From positions 32,612-53,250 of the IMG/VR virus record IMGVR_UViG_3300030117_004770: a DNA stretch of 20,639 nucleotides. One strand, written 5' to 3'. The translations under genes and the position numbers were made by a program. The notes beneath the pieces are model-generated. The model was not told where the DNA came from. It did no database searches and was given only the letters and a program-made list of their open reading frames with translations. Source of the DNA: a virus. Shown here piece after piece: positions 4,358 to 15,705 of this stretch; positions within the stretch are counted from its first letter, which is position 1; every line of letters begins with the position of its first letter.

Positions 4358-5524
4358 TTATGGCGTTTTTCTAGTTGTATTCCATGCTGCTAGATATGTG
4401 TCAATAGCGTCTAAAGCAGGATAAGTTGGAGTAGCATTATAATTAAAAGAACCATCTACATAAGGGTAAGAAGGTGTTCCAATAATAGGAATTTTGTTTA
4501 CCGATTTATAACAACCTATCAAATTCAAAGTGTTATCATCATCTACGAAAAATACAGGGTCGCTAGAATCTTTTATTCCAGCACCATTAAACCAATCATC
4601 GTAACTAATTTGCCCAGAAGACGCTTGTTGGGATGTAACACCAGTAGTATGCAAGTTGTTACCTGTACTAAATAAAGATTGCATTGTACCTAAAATACGC
4701 CAAGTGACTCTTTGTTTGAAAGGATCTTGGTTGAAATGAGAACTTCGTGTTCTAGTGTCTAAAAGATATGTAAACTGCGCTGGTGGGTCTTGTTTTGGTG
4801 ATAATCCTCCTGATGCACCTGTAAATTTTTTAATAGAGTATTGTGTTAGACTTTCATCTACTGAAGTGATTGTACCACCATCATCGGCTTCTAAAATAGC
4901 TATAGATAAATCCTCAAATTGATCACCTAAACCAAAAATATCATGTAAGTCAATTAATGAAGAGTACCCTCCAGATGTTGAAAAAGATCCTCCAGACTGT
5001 GCAAACCTATACTTAAATCTTTCGCCTTTAGCATTAGTAAATGTTAATCTCCTACCTACCCCTCCTGCATGGTGAGTAGCTAAAACCACCGCTCTTGGGC
5101 CAATCAAAGTCCCTCTACGGCTACTATCAAAACCATTACTATCATGAAAAGCGACCCCTGTTAAATCAAACCTAGCAGCCCAACAACCAGAATCACGATT
5201 CAAAATATTTTCCGTTTCAGTACCATCAGTTTGTATAAAGTACTGATCGTGCATCGGAACTTTTGTAGAAATGTTCGGTGGACCAGCCCCAGTAAAATTA
5301 CCACTCCCATCTGGGCCAGACCGAGGCGTAGGGTATTTTGCTCTGTAAGCTCTCAAAGCGTCTAATACAGCGGTTCCTTCGTAACCGTACGCATGTAGAA
5401 GCTCGTGAAAAGTAGTGAACTTGTTTTTAGCTTCAGAGACATCATAAATAGGTATGATGTCATTATAGCTAAATTGGGTATCAACTAGCTTGTCATTAAC
5501 TGGTGTGTCTCCTAATCTTGGCAT
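4358..5524 (-). CDS. IYD-module protein fused to a trypsin-like serine peptidase domain
   Basis: This protein has 388 aa. Residues 1-45 (MPRLGDTP ... IIPIYDVSEAKNKFTTFHELLHA) match the short N-terminal module seen in two other proteins here (65 and 62 aa). The rest looks like a trypsin-fold domain: GTLIGPRAVVLATHH (138-152) at the catalytic His position, probably H151; EDLSIAIL (204-211) at the Asp position, D205; and KDSSDPVFFVDD ... LNLIGCY (318-339) at the Ser position, S320. The usual GDSGSP is changed to KDSSDP: the Asp-Ser pair is kept but the oxyanion-hole glycine is not. I recall similar proteins in Verrucomicrobia- and Planctomycetes-like bacteria. It could be a virion-associated protease or an inactive, binding-only derivative. 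ATG 5524 follows the stop of the upstream paralogue immediately, with no gap. Confidence 0.6.
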   Translation of the reverse strand: MPRLGDTPVNDKLVDTQFSYNDIIPIYDVSEAKNKFTTFHELLHAYGYEGTAVLDALRAYRAKYPTPRSGPDGSGNFTGAGPPNISTKVPMHDQYFIQTDGTETENILNRDSGCWAARFDLTGVAFHDSNGFDSSRRGTLIGPRAVVLATHHAGGVGRRLTFTNAKGERFKYRFAQSGGSFSTSGGYSSLIDLHDIFGLGDQFEDLSIAILEADDGGTITSVDESLTQYSIKKFTGASGGLSPKQDPPAQFTYLLDTRTRSSHFNQDPFKQRVTWRILGTMQSLFSTGNNLHTTGVTSQQASSGQISYDDWFNGAGIKDSSDPVFFVDDDNTLNLIGCYKSVNKIPIIGTPSYPYVDGSFNYNATPTYPALDAIDTYLAAWNTTRKTP

Positions 5525-6458: not shown

Positions 6459-9400
6459 TTAATAAATGTTGTAATGTGAATTGATATTGCTTTCGATGCC
6501 TGACTGATTGCCGTGTTGATCGGAGTCGTACCAGATCATCTCAGAAAACTTTACGTCTTCTAGGTTCCAATCTTCGTTAGTACCAAATGTGTTTCCTATA
6601 TTCACTTCAGGCCAACCAGTGGTTGATGCACTTCGGTGATAAACAAGTTTTCGCCCTTTTATTGCTTCGTATATATTATCTTGATTGTTTTGGGTAGGTT
6701 CAGATCCGTTAACCTCTAAAACTGGACTTCCATAAGCAGCACTAAGGCTAGTGGCTGATGTGTAATCGTCCCTTGCAGGAAAACCATATTTTAATGAACC
6801 ACTACCACTACTTGGGTATATAAATTGAGTGTCATTAGCATCATGAACGAAGAAAGCATCCAAGTCCGTTATGCCAGTCAGTCCATGTATAGTGAGTGAT
6901 CTTTGTGGATTACCCCTAATAAAATCCCAAGCAGGATGATTGCCTGACTTAATGAGTGACCCTGTTCGTATGATCTGACATTGATTAGCAGCAGTATCTT
7001 GAACTGCATGGCAGTTGTTTCCTGTCTGATCGTATAGAGTTGTGACGAAGCCATCACTATCTTTTGATCTAACTTTAATGTTTTTGAAGTATATAGTTTG
7101 CCCTGCGACTGATGCACCTGTGATTCCGAAGTTATCATTTGTAGCATCACCGACAATGAGTGATGTGTTTGTTGTCGGTTTAATGTAAAGCTCACCACTA
7201 TTAGGAAGATTCCCTTTGAGTGTTACGCTTCTCCAAGTGGTGTCAGCTATAATCTTGGCGTTTTCTACGCTTTTGGTTCCATGAGTGTTAACAAAAGCAG
7301 CACCTAACAACCAGAACCTATTATTAAACCCACTGCCTCCTGTCAGATAGTCAAAAGTAACTTCATAATTTGTAACAGTGTCAGTGCCTAGATTGCCTCT
7401 TTTGAGATGGAAACGACCGCCACTCGATGAATCAACAGTGACTCTAAGTACATCTGTTCTTCCTGCAATCCCATCGTTATTACCTGTGAAGTTATCAATA
7501 GTCATATATGTACCTGATGGGAAACCTACTACCTCATAACCATTGGTATCAGCACTGAAGTCTGACTCGTGATCGTAAACATCAAAATGATTCAACATAT
7601 TCTGCTCGATTTCAAACCGCTTGGGCGATGAATCCATGTTTGGGAAGAATACCATTTCTGATATTTTTCCTGTGAAGTTGTAGGTTGAGTTAGAAGATCC
7701 CCCATAATGACCAACCTCTAAATTACCCCAACTACTTGTACTCGCATTGTGCTGACTGAATAGCTTTGTAGATCCTGTTAGAGCGTCATGGACATCATTT
7801 CTATCTGAAAAGGATTGCAATGTTCCATTTACATAATAACTCGGAGTTCCGAAATTAGCTTCAATACTACTATCTCCAGAACTATCATCAGCAACAGCAG
7901 CAAAATTACTTGTGTCAGTCGGGTCGGCAGGATAGATGTAGGGGTCATCAGAAGTATCTTGGATAGCATAGATGTCTAACCTGTCCTGTCCTGCAAGAGT
8001 GCTGTTCTGAAGTGTATCACCTCCATCGAAGTAAACGGAAGCCTTGCCACCATTATCGGTCACGAGTTCAGACCCCATCACGATGCGAGGTTGTAATGCT
8101 GCGTTCTCTTGAATAAAATCTTTCTGTCTCCCGCCACCTTGATCATGCCATGTAACTACGTGCAAATCACCAGTTATCGCTGTACCATTGGTGGCTGTAA
8201 GATCCCTAAGTTTGGTAGTCTCAAGCTGCGCCCCCCACTGGATAATACCTTTTGTCGTGTCTCCTGCGTATGCAGAATGACTGCCATTGGTTTGAGCAAC
8301 ATTTATTCGTACTGCACCTAAGTATGATCCGCTTGTGTCTACGTTAGCAGAGGTGGTAAACTTCATACTCACACGGAACCATCCGTTACCTTCATCAGTT
8401 ATTGATGTTTCTACATTTGATGAAGTCTGACCAGAAATAACAGTTCCATTAGTCAAATCAAAAGCAGCGTTGACCACATCGATCATGTTGTTCGATGAGT
8501 CTCGTTGCCATGCGAAAAGTTTAACATTCCTGTCATTGACCGACTTTATATATGTTGAGAACACATAGGTTTGGCTCGGTTGCATTTGTATAGTATCAAC
8601 TATTGAATGCTCACTCGTTTGGTTTGTTTCTAAGAGCTTAAAGGCATCTTGGCTACCTGTTGGTGAAGTCTCATTGTAGCTTACCTCCTGTAATGTATTA
8701 TTGTGATTCCATGAGCCTGATACGCCTGATGTATAAGTGCTATAGGTGAGCAAGTTCATTGTCGGAACAAACTCTTTAATTGTAGTCGCTATCGTGTCGC
8801 TTGTATCATTATCTGGCGAGACTGTGTAAACTGGTGTACTAGCATAGGTCGGGGTGACTACATCGCTAAGTTCGGTAATAATGACATTATCAATCTTGAG
8901 TTCAGTTGCACCTATGGATTCTATAAAGAGGGAATCACTAGTTGCTATACCTTCAAAGGTATGTGTTCCGTTAGCGGAAGCAGCAGTGAATGCATTATAA
9001 GTCAATGCGTTAAATGGAACTTTAGGTCTTACAGACCCGCTCTGATAATCCTCAACGTCAAATTGCACACGATACTTTTTGCCTTTTGTGAAAAGGCTGT
9101 ACTGTTGTAAATTTTGAGTACTATTGGTATTAAACACACCCTTTCCACCTGATACTGATACTAAACTAGAATTACTAGGAGTCCACTGTTTAGGGCCAGT
9201 TCCACTAAAGGTGCTGTCATAACCTGTAACAACAGTATTGGTCGGTGTATGTGTTGTCTCGTTAAGCATCGCCCCATAGACATAGACGGACTTGGAAGTT
9301 GCGTTTCGATCAGGTTCAATGGTTACACTTTGAACGCCATCATGGTTAACTGGTACTACGGATACACTTAACCTGTACCAACCATCTCCAACTGATTCCA

Positions 9401-12400
9401 ACTGTCCATATGCGGTGGTACTTGCCTCAACAGTTTCACCTAGATTGATTGTTGCTACACCTGAAGATTCTCCTGACCAGTCTACAGTGGCTCTTTGAGT
9501 ATTTGGACTGGTATTATTATCGTAAAAACTAATCCTTGTTTTACTACTGGTGTTTGCTTTGAGGTAAGCTGAAAAAGTATATTGCTTGGAAGATGATAGT
9601 TCTAGATCTGGGTTCGAAGAAATTGTGTAATAGATTCCGCTCCATGCATTGCTACCACTTGCTTGTAAGAGATAAGCGTTATTGCCACCAAAGGGATCAG
9701 TAATACTAGGAGCTTCTGTTGCTGATCCACTAGAATTAGAAGTCCATTGACGAAAGTCTTCAGAGTAAGCTAACAAATTATTAGTGCAGTTAACGATAGG
9801 TGAAGAAAGGCTTATCTCGTTATTACTATCTGCAAAAACTTCGACCTCTTGATCTGTGTCGGCATTCCTGCAACGCATCAAGCTCTTGCCTGAGTGATTT
9901 GAATTGATGAGTCTTGTGCTAACCCCCGTTGGTTCTGGTGATATTTCTTTAACCGATACATTGTCTACTATACCTGCGAACGCAGCATCTGCTGATAATT
10001 GGATACTCGCATTACCTGTTACTGCGGTCAGTACCTCACTGTAAGACCCACTAGCTGCTCTAGCTGTCCCATCAACATTTGTTCCACTTGTTAATTTAAA
10101 TGTTAAAGTCCCTGCTGTTCTTACCAGATCGTAGCTAATTTGATATTTTCTCCCTGCGATCAATGGAACGCTTTGATAAGTTGCACTGGGTGACGATTGA
10201 GCCGTTCTCTCTATATAATCATTTGTGGTGTTAATTGACCATCCTGTTCCCGTTGTCCATGCGCTGGTGTCAGCGAAGGTTCCATTAGTGATCAACTCAG
10301 AGGCATCGGCTGTGATATTCAACGGCAAAGTTTTTTGCTCTTCTGCTTTATGAAAGTTTTCTGTTATGCCACCATCTATGTCAGAAGCTGAAAAAGATTG
10401 CTCTCGCTCATCATAGGTTCGTCTGATTTTGACTACCTTCTGTGTAGAATTTCCCTCAAAAATATTACGAAGAGAATGAGCTGCCTTTATACCCTTATAT
10501 TTTGTACCTAAAAAATTAGAATTACTTAAATTTTTTAATCTAGAGTCACTTAAAAACTTATTATAATACCGCATCCTTCTAATCCACCCATTGTAGTTCT
10601 CATTATTGCTTCCACGATAACCTATGCGAATGCGGTTAATTCCTGCTGGAATATCGAACGCTGAATTTGTAGATGTGCCTACCTCAGTAACTCTAACACT
10701 TCCGACTGTTAGTTGAGTCTCTCCTTGTGATTGGATCATCACAAGTTCATCGGGTACGGATGTTGTTGAGGCTACTCCTATGGCTGTAAAAGTTCCAGTG
10801 GAAGACCGAACATTTGAGTCGCTGAATGGCGCACGAACCTTTACTCCCCCTTTAGTCCAACTTGTTATATCAAATACAACTTTGTATGTTCGTCCTGTTA
10901 CTAAATTAAGGTCTTTGTGTATATCTTGAGCACCAGAACCTGTATTAAAAACCGCTCCACTACCCGTTATGTCTATTTCAGACGTATCATTAGTCTTACT
11001 AAATCCATTCGCAGCAGTAGGGGCTTGGTTGAGAAGAAGGTCTTGACCGAAACTTTGTTTTATATCACCACCATCAAAAGAAGCTTTGTGTCTATCGTCA
11101 TGTTTAAAAGCATGGGCAATTTTAAAAACTTCCCCATTTGATATATTAACATTATCATTAAGTGTTAGTTCATCAGAACCACTATCAACAACTTGCACTC
11201 TAAGTGTGTCATCAGCATTTGCCACAAATCCCTGAATGGATCGAGCAAAATCACCAACGGAATCATCAAAAACATACATCCTTTCAACATATGAAGTGTC
11301 GTAATTATTTTGAACCTCTCCTTCAGTAACAAATGTACCTTCGGTGGTCTTAAAAAAATCATCGACATCATCTACCTTGAATTGATCTACTTTTCTGGTG
11401 GCCTCGGCATTAGTTCCCCATGTAGGGATGAAAGATGTGCTGTTGTTGGCGAACTGCTCTAGTTGGCTTCCAAACAACAAAATCCCTCCACCATTGCCTG
11501 AGAAGGTTCCACCATTAGCTTCTTCTTTGATGTTGTGATCTAGGTATAGTGAAACTTCTTTGACTGAGACGTTGTCTACTGTAAAAGAGAAATCGCCTGT
11601 ACCCGCTTTATCAAACTGAATAACATTTGAGTTGCTGTTTGTCGTCCATTCAAATGATACATTTTGTGGGCTTCCTGTGAAGGTAGTCGTTGTTTGAGCT
11701 GGCTGTAATCCTCCTAGGTTCGATCCATTATCCATAAGAACTACCTGTTTTCCAGCAGTTCCATTCAATGTAGCCGTCACTCTATATCGTCTTCCTACTG
11801 TGTAAGAAATTAGTTGATTAATAGTTTGGTAACCGCCACCTGTAACTGCAATCGTAGCAACTCCCGATCCAATGGTCGCGCCAGATGATGTTGCCCAACT
11901 GCTATCAGTCTCATCACTAAAGTCTCCATTAGTTACCAACTCAATGTTATGAGTAAAGTATTTGATAGAAATCCTGTACCACCCGTTTGGATACTCCTCT
12001 ACATTTGTTAAATGTGATCCATTGTCATAAACTTTTGTACCTGTCGTTAAATCAAATTGAGGTCCAGTGTTTGCAGCAGTCCCAACCGCAGCATTAATGC
12101 CTAAAATGTTGTATCCATCTGCCTTAGCAAAGACGCTGTATACGTAAGTGGTATTGTTTGTAATTGTGTAGGCTCGACGATGGTAATGATAATTATTGTC
12201 ATCCGTCGCATTGATTGAATACGCTCTTGTGTTACCTGTAGGATCAAGAACGGAGCTTGGGCCTGACGTGATATAATGATTGTTAAAACCAGACTGGCTA
12301 GATAATGAAAATGACTCCGTATCTAGATTAGTCTTTTCTTTCTCCGTTAAAATTCCTCTAAATGCACCATCTTTAGTATAATCTAATCTAGGCGCATAAT

Positions 12401-13697
12401 AATTAAGGCTTGTAGTAGCGTTATAGTCAGTCGGTTGAGTTCCAAAAGTTGCTTCTAATTGAGGGCCATAGAATAAAGTTGATAGATATCCTGTTGATCT
12501 ATCTGGTCTTACTCGAAAAGTAAATGAACTAGTCGTGACATTAGAAACAAATTTGAACGAGCATCGTACCCATCCGTTCCCTACATCAGTGAATGTAATG
12601 TTGGTTGGAGTATAATTGCCTGATGTGGCATTCAAGCCCATTGTCCCATCCGAATGGACGTTAACATCGATTGCTGAAACATGTGAATAAGCGGGCGAAT
12701 AACTTGCGTCGCCCGTTACTGAAATTTGAAAGAGTTCTGAGTCAACTCTCTTAGCATAAATCGAAGCAACGTAGCATTGCCCATTGGCTAGTGAGATTGA
12801 TTTTTCAAATCTTGCGTTGACTTCGTGTTCGTCAGTCGCAGTCCCTTCCGTTTTAAAATAAGGTTTTACAGCGTATTTGTTTAACTGCGCCCCGAAAAAG
12901 GTCACATCTTTTCCAGTGTTTGAGGAGGCAGGGGTAGTAGAATCAGGTATAAGCCTCAAAGAAAGATTAGTAGAAGTAGCGGGAGGTGTGAATTGAAAAC
13001 TTATTCGATACCACCCACCCCCGACAGAGTCATATTTTATCGTGTTAATACTATCCGTAGATGCTGTCTCAAAAGCTCCATTAGCTACGTTTACCGATAC
13101 TTCTAGTCTTCCTCTTACAGGATAAGGACTAGGACCAGTAGTAATTGCATTATCATTTAATTGAATTCTAAATAAGCTTGAGGGGTTTGAAGTCGGTAAC
13201 TTAACATAAACGCTTGCATAATAAACTACATTTGCTGTGACAGATATCCCTGTAATTTCCCTACGGTCTGCATTAGGGAAATCTCCTGATCCTGATCCCG
13301 AAAGAGTAAAAGCTGCGTTCCCACCGAATGGATCAGACGCACTAGTTGTTGTACAATTAATAGGAGTCCATTGATCAAAGGCTTCTGATTTAGGGACAAG
13401 GTTTTCTAAGCCATCATGAGCATCAAGCTTAAATGCAGATGTACCCCCAAAAGGATCTGCGTTGTTACTACTAATTATGTTAGACCCATCTAAAGAACTC
13501 CATAGAGCAAAGTTACTCGATTGCGTTAAAAGATTATTTGGTGCAAATTTGAGATAGCCATCGCTACCCCTCATTGTGGCGTTTGATAAACGAGTATGCG
13601 TAACGCCACGAGGTAATGAATCCTGCAAAAAGTTGTAGTTCCTTTTTACATCACCTAAACCACTAGATGAAGTTAGTTTTGTACCTAAACCTAACAT
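6459..13697 (-). CDS. Giant modular tail fibre / receptor-binding protein (2412 aa)
   Basis: The protein is a chain of beta-sandwich, carbohydrate-binding-like modules. After a short N-terminus (RLSNATMRGSDGYLKFAPNN, 36-55) comes a family of modules marked by NLL-x-x-S-x-x-F-x-x-W, DPFGG-x-x-A, GWYR and Y/F-G-x-QLE. GWYR variants occur near 228-231, 376-378, 572-575, 1439-1442 and 1772-1775. A second type resembles CBM_4_9, starting NG-D/T-F and ending DNVSVKE (585-719, 1132-1254, with relatives at 891-1008, 1490-1613 and 2042-2210). A LamG-like domain spans about 780-1060. Two arabinofuranosidase-B/LamG-like domains are recognised by RRTYDEREQ-type starts (from 1068 and 1256) and W/Y-x-DQ-x-G ends (1848 and 2221). 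Several modules are interrupted by others. It is probably an extended virion protein that binds host surface glycans. There is no signal peptide, and no catalytic site is recognised. Its size is exceptional for a phage fibre. Confidence 0.85.
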   Translation of the reverse strand: MLGLGTKLTSSSGLGDVKRNYNFLQDSLPRGVTHTRLSNATMRGSDGYLKFAPNNLLTQSSNFALWSSLDGSNIISSNNADPFGGTSAFKLDAHDGLENLVPKSEAFDQWTPINCTTTSASDPFGGNAAFTLSGSGSGDFPNADRREITGISVTANVVYYASVYVKLPTSNPSSLFRIQLNDNAITTGPSPYPVRGRLEVSVNVANGAFETASTDSINTIKYDSVGGGWYRISFQFTPPATSTNLSLRLIPDSTTPASSNTGKDVTFFGAQLNKYAVKPYFKTEGTATDEHEVNARFEKSISLANGQCYVASIYAKRVDSELFQISVTGDASYSPAYSHVSAIDVNVHSDGTMGLNATSGNYTPTNITFTDVGNGWVRCSFKFVSNVTTSSFTFRVRPDRSTGYLSTLFYGPQLEATFGTQPTDYNATTSLNYYAPRLDYTKDGAFRGILTEKEKTNLDTESFSLSSQSGFNNHYITSGPSSVLDPTGNTRAYSINATDDNNYHYHRRAYTITNNTTYVYSVFAKADGYNILGINAAVGTAANTGPQFDLTTGTKVYDNGSHLTNVEEYPNGWYRISIKYFTHNIELVTNGDFSDETDSSWATSSGATIGSGVATIAVTGGGYQTINQLISYTVGRRYRVTATLNGTAGKQVVLMDNGSNLGGLQPAQTTTTFTGSPQNVSFEWTTNSNSNVIQFDKAGTGDFSFTVDNVSVKEVSLYLDHNIKEEANGGTFSGNGGGILLFGSQLEQFANNSTSFIPTWGTNAEATRKVDQFKVDDVDDFFKTTEGTFVTEGEVQNNYDTSYVERMYVFDDSVGDFARSIQGFVANADDTLRVQVVDSGSDELTLNDNVNISNGEVFKIAHAFKHDDRHKASFDGGDIKQSFGQDLLLNQAPTAANGFSKTNDTSEIDITGSGAVFNTGSGAQDIHKDLNLVTGRTYKVVFDITSWTKGGVKVRAPFSDSNVRSSTGTFTAIGVASTTSVPDELVMIQSQGETQLTVGSVRVTEVGTSTNSAFDIPAGINRIRIGYRGSNNENYNGWIRRMRYYNKFLSDSRLKNLSNSNFLGTKYKGIKAAHSLRNIFEGNSTQKVVKIRRTYDEREQSFSASDIDGGITENFHKAEEQKTLPLNITADASELITNGTFADTSAWTTGTGWSINTTNDYIERTAQSSPSATYQSVPLIAGRKYQISYDLVRTAGTLTFKLTSGTNVDGTARAASGSYSEVLTAVTGNASIQLSADAAFAGIVDNVSVKEISPEPTGVSTRLINSNHSGKSLMRCRNADTDQEVEVFADSNNEISLSSPIVNCTNNLLAYSEDFRQWTSNSSGSATEAPSITDPFGGNNAYLLQASGSNAWSGIYYTISSNPDLELSSSKQYTFSAYLKANTSSKTRISFYDNNTSPNTQRATVDWSGESSGVATINLGETVEASTTAYGQLESVGDGWYRLSVSVVPVNHDGVQSVTIEPDRNATSKSVYVYGAMLNETTHTPTNTVVTGYDSTFSGTGPKQWTPSNSSLVSVSGGKGVFNTNSTQNLQQYSLFTKGKKYRVQFDVEDYQSGSVRPKVPFNALTYNAFTAASANGTHTFEGIATSDSLFIESIGATELKIDNVIITELSDVVTPTYASTPVYTVSPDNDTSDTIATTIKEFVPTMNLLTYSTYTSGVSGSWNHNNTLQEVSYNETSPTGSQDAFKLLETNQTSEHSIVDTIQMQPSQTYVFSTYIKSVNDRNVKLFAWQRDSSNNMIDVVNAAFDLTNGTVISGQTSSNVETSITDEGNGWFRVSMKFTTSANVDTSGSYLGAVRINVAQTNGSHSAYAGDTTKGIIQWGAQLETTKLRDLTATNGTAITGDLHVVTWHDQGGGRQKDFIQENAALQPRIVMGSELVTDNGGKASVYFDGGDTLQNSTLAGQDRLDIYAIQDTSDDPYIYPADPTDTSNFAAVADDSSGDSSIEANFGTPSYYVNGTLQSFSDRNDVHDALTGSTKLFSQHNASTSSWGNLEVGHYGGSSNSTYNFTGKISEMVFFPNMDSSPKRFEIEQNMLNHFDVYDHESDFSADTNGYEVVGFPSGTYMTIDNFTGNNDGIAGRTDVLRVTVDSSSGGRFHLKRGNLGTDTVTNYEVTFDYLTGGSGFNNRFWLLGAAFVNTHGTKSVENAKIIADTTWRSVTLKGNLPNSGELYIKPTTNTSLIVGDATNDNFGITGASVAGQTIYFKNIKVRSKDSDGFVTTLYDQTGNNCHAVQDTAANQCQIIRTGSLIKSGNHPAWDFIRGNPQRSLTIHGLTGITDLDAFFVHDANDTQFIYPSSGSGSLKYGFPARDDYTSATSLSAAYGSPVLEVNGSEPTQNNQDNIYEAIKGRKLVYHRSASTTGWPEVNIGNTFGTNEDWNLEDVKFSEMIWYDSDQHGNQSGIESNINSHYNIY
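6462..10496 (-). other. Nested AbfB/LamG-like domains at the fibre C-terminus
   Basis: An outer start (AAHSLRNIF ... VVKIRRTYDEREQSFSASDIDGG, residues 1068-1130) is matched by the last end (DGFVTTLYDQTGN to SHYNIY, 2214-2412). An inner start (GKSLMRCRNADTDQEVEVF ... ISLSSP, 1256-1303) is matched by the first end (HVVTWHDQGGGRQ to MLNHFDVY, 1840-2041). Between and around them sit CBM-like modules at 1132-1254, 1306-1487, 1490-1613, 1648-1832 and 2042-2210. The ends pair like brackets. The pairing is inferred from motif order. Confidence 0.5.
10518..11360 (-). other. Fibre LamG-like module E (residues 780-890 and 1009-1060) split by module F (891-1008)
   Basis: The LamG-like domain begins TTEGTFVTEGEV, continues through FKIAHAFKHDDRHKASFDGG and breaks off near GQD. 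It resumes at AFDIPAGINRIRIG and NGWIRRMRYYNKFLSD, which normally follow directly. The 118-residue insert contains RTYKVVFDITSW and VRVTEVG and resembles the sandwich at 1490-1613 (both share a KVRAPF/RPKVPF strand). Confidence 0.55.
11388..12329 (-). other. Fibre module C (residues 457-584 and 722-770) split by a CBM_4_9-like module D (585-719)
   Basis: Module C runs from NLDTESFSLSS through YPNGWYRISIKYFTHN. Its last strands appear only after residue 722 as ILLFGSQLEQF ... SFIPTWGT ... ATRKVDQF, which is the usual end of such modules. The intervening 135 residues form a self-contained module from ELVTNGDFSD to VDNVSVKEV. The tripeptide HNI stands at both junctions (FTHNI and LDHNI). Confidence 0.55.
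12408..13535 (-). other. Fibre module A (residues 55-97 and 285-430) split by module B (99-284)
   Basis: Module A starts NLLTQSSNFALW and reaches DPFGGTSAFKLDA, then stops making sense as a jelly roll. It resumes at GTATDEHEVNA and YVASIYAKR, GNGWVRCSF and FYGPQLE. Between them lies a complete second module (NLVPKSEAFDQW, DPFGGNAAF, GGGWYRISF, FFGAQLN). Joining the two halves of A restores the order seen in the other modules of this protein. It is followed by the linker APRLDYTKDGAFRGIL. The split is inferred from motif order. Confidence 0.55.
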
Positions 13698-15015: not shown

Positions 15016-15705
15016 CTATTCCCATATTCGATGTCCTAAATCTTGATCACAAATATCACTATGTCCTTCTTTCTGTGCTGCTAACCATGTCGCAGGGCAA
15101 TATACGTTCCAGTCTTTACGTCTATGGGCTACTTCGTATTGATGATCTACATGATGATTCTGTCTGCCCATATAATCAGGAGCGTGGTTGAGGTGAACAT
15201 ACACTTTTTTATATATTTTACGTTTTAAAGCGTAGGCGTGAGTCCTATTTACTGACATAGCTCTCATAACTCTCTGAATACCTATATGTTCTGGCTCTCT
15301 CCTATGCTGTCCACCTAAGTATATTTGATCCCAATTAGTAGGTACATTATGCATAAAAGCATTTAACATAGGTAATGCTTCAGGTATAAATTCAGCGTCA
15401 TCTTCAAGTATTAGAATTGATCCAATGGTTTTATTTAAGATGTTCTGCTCCATTATAACGTCTTCGATAATTCTTATATGAGACCTCAAACACCCCCATG
15501 CACCAGCTCCTGCCTGAAAGTAACTTGGGAAAGAGGTTCTATTTCCCATAATAGCAGGGTAAACTACAATATCCTCTGGGTCGGCTAAGTTACTTTCTTC
15601 TATATCGTTTAAGAAACTTTTGAGTCTTTGTTCTCTATCAGGTCTATTTATTACATAAATCCTGTCGAACCAGTCAGTAAGCTGTTTATACCCGTTATAA
15701 GCCAC
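15016..15705 (-). CDS. Glycosyltransferase family 25 (LPS glycosyltransferase type)
   Basis: The 229-aa sequence carries the family 25 layout: YVINRPDREQR (17-27) at the N-terminus, GAWGCLRSH (68-76), the metal-binding DxD-type motif in ILILEDDAEF (97-106), WDQIYLGG (125-132), THAYALKR (155-162) and a C-terminal DHQYE ... ATWLAAQKEGHSDI (187-218). Such enzymes transfer a sugar, often galactose, from a nucleotide sugar onto lipopolysaccharide or protein. There is no membrane anchor, so it would act in the cytoplasm. GTG 15705 directly follows the stop of the upstream gene. Its location inside the virion-structure operon rather than among early genes is unusual. It may glycosylate a phage structural protein or alter host surface glycan late in infection. 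The family call is strong; the acceptor is unknown. Confidence 0.85.
   Translation of the reverse strand: MAYNGYKQLTDWFDRIYVINRPDREQRLKSFLNDIEESNLADPEDIVVYPAIMGNRTSFPSYFQAGAGAWGCLRSHIRIIEDVIMEQNILNKTIGSILILEDDAEFIPEALPMLNAFMHNVPTNWDQIYLGGQHRREPEHIGIQRVMRAMSVNRTHAYALKRKIYKKVYVHLNHAPDYMGRQNHHVDHQYEVAHRRKDWNVYCPATWLAAQKEGHSDICDQDLGHRIWE

Follow-up and report, generated by a model that had tools for sequence, protein, structure and literature searches.

The window analysed here (20,639 bases; positions 32612–53250 of the 53,250-base uncultured virus record IMGVR_UViG_3300030117_004770) encodes a protein that is very likely an adsorption fibre made of putative sugar-binding beta-sandwiches, in which four scaffolds (domains A, C, E, and an AbfB/LamG-like domain) each carry modules in a loop. 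Comparison with relatives at the sequence level demonstrated that the split halves are consecutive parts of domains that are unbroken in those relatives and that the inserts are whole modules. It likewise demonstrated that many viral proteins have the AbfB-like domain divided at one shared loop and that this domain can hold its own copy. Growth by in-frame insertion of complete modules at a few permissive loops, together with tandem addition within loops and cassette exchange, is the best-supported explanation of this architecture.

Fibre gene and database matches

The fibre gene was read on the minus strand from 13697 down to 6462 as 2412 residues without interruption. Its features are listed in Table 1, where residue numbers count from the gene start. 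The protein was assigned to the PHROG family annotated as 'tail protein' with an E-value of 3.8e-58. The Pfam scan reported CBM_4_9 (PF02018) as the sole family, in three stretches and with 40.4 bits against a gathering cut-off of 25.9; at the cut-off of PF09206, the AbfB catalytic domain, there was no Pfam match anywhere in the protein. Among the structural genes of the window, a glycosyltransferase family 25-like gene (PF01755, E-value of 9e-6) was located at 15016–15705 on the minus strand; its product might decorate virion proteins or change host sugars. A 388-aa protein encoded at 4358–5524 on the same strand gave no match in Pfam and PHROG searches.

Table 1. Positions of the fibre gene and its domains in the window.
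Feature	Position	Strand	Evidence
Fibre gene, 2412 aa	6462..13697	-	stop codon 6459–6461; PHROG 5939
A1, first part of host domain A (residues 52–93)	13419..13544	-	modA columns 1–41 at residues 52–91
B, inserted complete CBM-like module (residues 94–286)	12840..13418	-	modA columns 3–179 at residues 98–287; gap in relatives
A2, rest of host domain A (residues 287–446)	12360..12839	-	modA columns 51–191 at residues 293–444
C1, first part of host domain C (residues 447–584)	11946..12359	-	modC columns 1–140 at residues 447–585
D, inserted CBM-like cassette 'ELVTNGDF...DNVSVKE' (residues 585–714)	11556..11945	-	junction vs L096
C2, rest of host domain C (residues 715–770)	11388..11555	-	modC columns 151–192 at residues 724–765
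E1, first part of host domain E (residues 771–876)	11070..11387	-	modE columns 4–109 at residues 771–876
F, inserted CBM-like module (residues ~877–1004)	10686..11069	-	uncovered by relatives; junctions vs L002, L090; deletion-search edges 877–1004
E2, rest of host domain E (residues 1005–1060)	10518..10685	-	modE columns 105–161 at residues 1003–1057
N1, N-half of outer AbfB/LamG-like domain (residues 1068–1130)	10308..10496	-	HMM 22.3 bits
G, CBM-like cassette, outer loop (residues 1131–1249)	9951..10307	-	resembles D and modules of other phages
N2, N-half of inner AbfB/LamG-like domain (residues 1250–1303)	9789..9950	-	likeness to L001–L005
H, complete CBM-like module, inner loop (residues 1304–1495)	9213..9788	-	Pfam CBM_4_9; structure match
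I, CBM-like cassette, inner loop (residues 1496–1618)	8844..9212	-	sequence comparison with relatives
J, complete CBM-like module, inner loop (residues 1647–1832)	8202..8759	-	modC columns 11–176; structure match
Ci, C-half of inner AbfB/LamG-like domain (residues 1838–2041)	7575..8186	-	HMM columns 51–262, 56.7 bits
K, module in outer loop after inner domain (residues 2042–2212)	7062..7574	-	slot position
Co, C-half of outer AbfB/LamG-like domain (residues 2213–2412)	6462..7061	-	HMM columns 51–262, 123.9 bits

Split host domains A, C, and E and empty sites in relatives

Relatives of the fibre were collected in overlapping sets: 6 from a first viral-contig scan, 80 loci detected with the C-terminal half as query, and 24 with the N-terminal region. 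Searches of bacterial and archaeal genome contigs with the N-terminal region gave no relative. Two of the loci, L097 and L012, represent opposite ends of a single viral contig (3300030106_005380), whose fibre gene is apparently cut by the contig ends.

Module HMMs for A, C, and E were trained on relatives only, with the window excluded. On the fibre protein, the pieces of each host domain were found in order and interrupted by a complete other domain. The motif order and nesting proposed in the original prediction, A(B), C(D), E(F), and an outer AbfB/LamG-like domain around an inner one, were thereby confirmed well above chance, and its coordinates proved correct within about 30 residues. Module B belongs to the same family as its host, the match between the two parts of A being a complete copy. 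Domain E is LamG/CBM40-like. By sequence, domain C is homologous to the RcGTA head spike fibre as well as to the E217 and Pa193 fibres; C1 alone matched 6tb9 with an E-value of 4.3e-5, and the profile comparison gave an E-value of 1.8e-51.

Insert edges were determined by a best-single-deletion search against the closest relatives, the B and D junctions being set against L096; with more distant relatives, other edges were also obtained. Free pairwise alignment with cheap gaps gave scattered edges and was replaced by this search. B, D, and F are whole modules, in frame, and at loop positions. Neither direct repeats nor target-site duplications exceeded chance at their ends.

In all of the approximately 20 relatives possessing the region, A, C, and E are unbroken, and they are split in the window only; B, D, and F are likewise present only in the window. 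An alignment of 18 relatives gave the same picture: among holders of the region, most columns of A, C, and E were covered, whereas coverage dropped to about 10% for B and D and to nearly nothing for F. Relative L001 (1931 aa), for example, is without B, D, and F, and its A, C, and E run through. The strongest evidence is provided by L014 (910 aa), in which A, C, E, and the AbfB-like domain are all unbroken, as they are in its near twin L013. The unbroken AbfB-like domain of L014 is 57% identical to the window protein over residues 2213–2412 (Co). The window protein thus corresponds roughly to the L014 fibre with about 1500 residues added in four loops.

The same data could be read in the opposite direction, with the nesting being old and short relatives such as L014 having lost their inserts. 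We regard loss as rather unlikely. It would be consistent with L014 and its twin being the only empty forms found in the close family and with the high DNA identity of L014 to relatives with a filled outer loop in the stretch leading to that loop (90% over 644 bases with L005 and 82% over 729 bases with L103). However, the absence of B, D, and F from every other relative points to gain, which is the simplest direction for these three modules as judged by sequence, and beyond this family the AbfB-like domain is commonly unbroken; the outer loop may have either gained or lost its contents.

The nested AbfB/LamG-like domain and its recurrence in viral proteins

The C-terminal part of the protein (residues 1068–2412) contained two HMM matches to the C-half of the AbfB/LamG-like domain, at 1842–2041 and 2213–2412. 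The outer N-half was matched at 1071–1109 with 22.3 bits, compared to 5.2 bits for the best of 300 protein shuffles. The inner N-half, N2, gave a non-significant 0.1 bits when taken alone; it is 53–63% identical to the corresponding segment of L001–L005, and the N-half HMM scored 17–23 bits on the N2 of L002, L003, and L004. When unbroken AbfB-like domains were aligned with residues 1244–2042, 24 of 24 matched N2 with their initial segment and Ci with the remainder, and modules H, I, and J (535 residues) appeared in this alignment as a single gap. The outer AbfB/LamG-like domain thus encloses a second split copy, and this inner copy holds H, I, and J in tandem within one loop, so an inserted domain acts as a host in its turn. 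The K slot is occupied by CBM-like cassettes in relatives; no close relative of K itself was found.

A profile built from 20 unbroken domains was used to survey the AbfB-like domain in other viral proteins. About 18 distinct proteins displayed the arrangements N-N-C-C, N-full-C, or N-C-C, and two more were single-split, with a common split point around columns 45–53 of 262; the same survey gave approximately 38 single copies without a break and a small number in tandem, counts which do not represent a frequency because the proteins were gathered with the window as the query. The most direct comparison is between L063 and L073, whose inner domains are without and with a module, respectively, while the flanks are 84.5% identical upstream and 93.5% downstream. 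This filled/empty pair shows N2 and Ci of that protein to be parts of one domain, and the loop to be a site that accepts inserts. It also provides a second case of an inserted domain serving as a host. Growth by loop insertion, as originally predicted, is supported both for B, D, and F, which occur in the window only, and by the L073/L063 pair. In L075 (8398–9582), about 100 non-AbfB-like residues interrupt one AbfB-like domain at the usual loop. In L056 (3–2582), three AbfB-like domains follow one another end to end, which represents tandem growth alongside nesting.

Trimeric fibres can swap strands. The AbfB-like halves could accordingly pair crosswise (N1 with Ci and N2 with Co) or be exchanged between the subunits of a trimer, and N2 and Ci are never contiguous within the close family of the window. 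Such pairing is nevertheless very unlikely, since the N-full-C proteins (L065, L053, L063, L074, and L033) keep the inner copy contiguous and L063 is the unbroken form of the N2 and Ci of L073.

Predicted structures

Two models were considered. Model 1 (AlphaFold, residues 1–1066) was of low confidence, with a mean pLDDT of 54 and a pTM of 0.31. In this model, a continuous domain of the Pa193 fibre (residues 181–397) spanned residues 446–770 with 177 aligned positions, a Z-score of 18.1, and an rmsd of 3.4; the 9b45/8env domain thus covers C1 and C2 across D. In the same low-confidence model, CBM40/NanC domains spanned 775–1063, i.e., E1 and E2 across F, with 154–157 aligned positions and a Z-score of about 14. 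For both C and E, the match length came close to that of the two halves added together, insert excluded. The alignment used for model 1 included unbroken bridging relatives, which favours joined halves, as well as one relative of D; these matches consequently provide support rather than independent proof. Model 2 (residues 1244–2042) had a mean pLDDT of 72, with 82–88 in N2 and mostly 80–90 in Ci. Its structure matches were loop modules such as H and J, and the AbfB-like domain was absent among the 50 matches listed.

The original prediction had proposed that the halves fold together, with structure prediction as the check. For C and E, joining of C1 with C2 and of E1 with E2 into one domain across the insert is supported by the modelled structures, in which continuous domains extend across D and F. 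The pairing of A1 with A2 and that of the AbfB-like halves is suggested by homology.

It is scarcely plausible that the segments form a series of small, independent domains whose so-called halves do not fold together. The low confidence of model 1 and the weak score of the inner N-half alone would fit such an arrangement, but relatives have each pair of halves as a single uninterrupted domain, continuous PDB domains span C1 with C2 and E1 with E2, and the 42-residue A1 and the 56-residue C2 are mere fragments of a domain known elsewhere. An assembly chimera of repeated modules is extremely improbable: the contig is metagenomic, its module families are repetitive, and B, D, and F occur in the window alone, but the frame of 2412 aa is open, the three inserts are whole and in frame at loops, and about 20 proteins, spread over many contigs, show nesting of AbfB-like domains.

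Exchange of loop modules

Host halves were better conserved between the window and its relatives than most loop modules, which were mostly 17–36% identical to their counterparts, with exceptions such as J (78% to L001). On sequence evidence, loop modules are exchanged between phage fibres. One cassette was found in two different loops, the inner loop of L004 and the outer loop of L019, with 91% DNA identity over 327 bases. Module D of the window, located inside domain C, shares 77% DNA identity over 345 bases with an L103 module that is enclosed by a CBM-like module in the outer loop. The DNA identity between cassettes sets in with the module's first motif and ends with its last. A search for the module-end pattern, aimed at synonymous conservation at module edges, found 18 modules, a number too small for such a comparison.

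A module within a module is also present in L004, and the same place is empty in L002. At this site, L004 (1413–1760) and L103 (10912–11319) both have a CBM-like module inside a CBM-like module, with different inserts.

Discussion

We propose that A, C, E, and the terminal AbfB/LamG-like domain each took up complete modules in one surface loop while keeping their own fold. In the inserted sandwiches, the first and last strands would lie side by side, and a module with such adjacent ends could occupy a beta-turn as a side branch. New modules would arrive by recombination between the fibre genes of phages meeting in one host, and every added module would add or swap a glycan contact, leaving the scaffold and the virion anchor unchanged. 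Binding of glycans by the modules and their setting of the host range are probable by analogy; this reading draws on the module families and the known roles of fibres.

Growth of giant multidomain fibres is usually pictured as beads added to a string, and CBMs are usually strung end to end beside enzymes. The CBM-like modules of this fibre, related to CBM_4_9 (PF02018) and to CBM22/16/4 structures, fill its loops and are placed inside other domains instead. The initial suggestion that the fibre grows by loop insertion rather than only end to end is supported for B, D, and F and by the L073/L063 pair, and end-to-end growth occurs as well, as seen in the H-I-J tandem and in L056. Host domain C has homologues, by sequence and predicted structure, in RcGTA Rcc01080 (6tb9), E217 gp45, and Pa193 gp46 (8env, 9b45); the domain is continuous in those proteins, whereas in the window a 130-aa module occupies one of its turns. 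The likeness of the terminal domain to the catalytic domain of alpha-L-arabinofuranosidase B (PF09206) comes through its relative L034, which passes the Pfam cut-off; in contrast, the terminal domain of the window has no such match and is split, and any enzyme activity is only putative.

Domain insertions are found in 20% of multidomain proteins, and the Si3 insertion of cyanobacterial RNA polymerase exhibits recursive domain insertion up to six levels (PMC13114784). Similarly to Si3, the fibre shows A1-B1-C-B2-A2 nesting of small beta domains, with inserted domains becoming hosts (PMC13114784). Si3 belongs to a housekeeping enzyme and reaches up to six levels, whereas the fibre has two levels and four host domains; on the phage side there are also relatives with empty sites, as well as cassettes that turn up in several loops. 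Domain mosaicism of phage receptor-binding proteins, with modules shuffled among fibres and spikes, has been described (PMC10684548); that work treats domain combinations, and the word 'nested' is absent from its text. Our literature search, whose coverage left most subscription journals outside, found no paper on nested insertion in phage fibres. As far as searched, a phage fibre with four separately split hosts, a series of empty and filled forms, and the repeated use of one loop in one domain family are new.

Since one family contains empty, once-filled, and doubly filled loops, insertional growth is directly legible in the sequences and open to testing with trees. The loops of these beta-sandwich domains are natural permissive insertion sites that could be used for protein engineering, and the approach offers a way to spot split domains missed by annotation tools. 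A bolder interpretation, which we consider doubtful at present, is that the nested loops form a branched, tree-like receptor-binding array and that cassettes hop between standard loop sites via preferred, perhaps dedicated, recombination. If this were true, branching insertion would be one of the chief means by which these phages assemble and readjust their host recognition.
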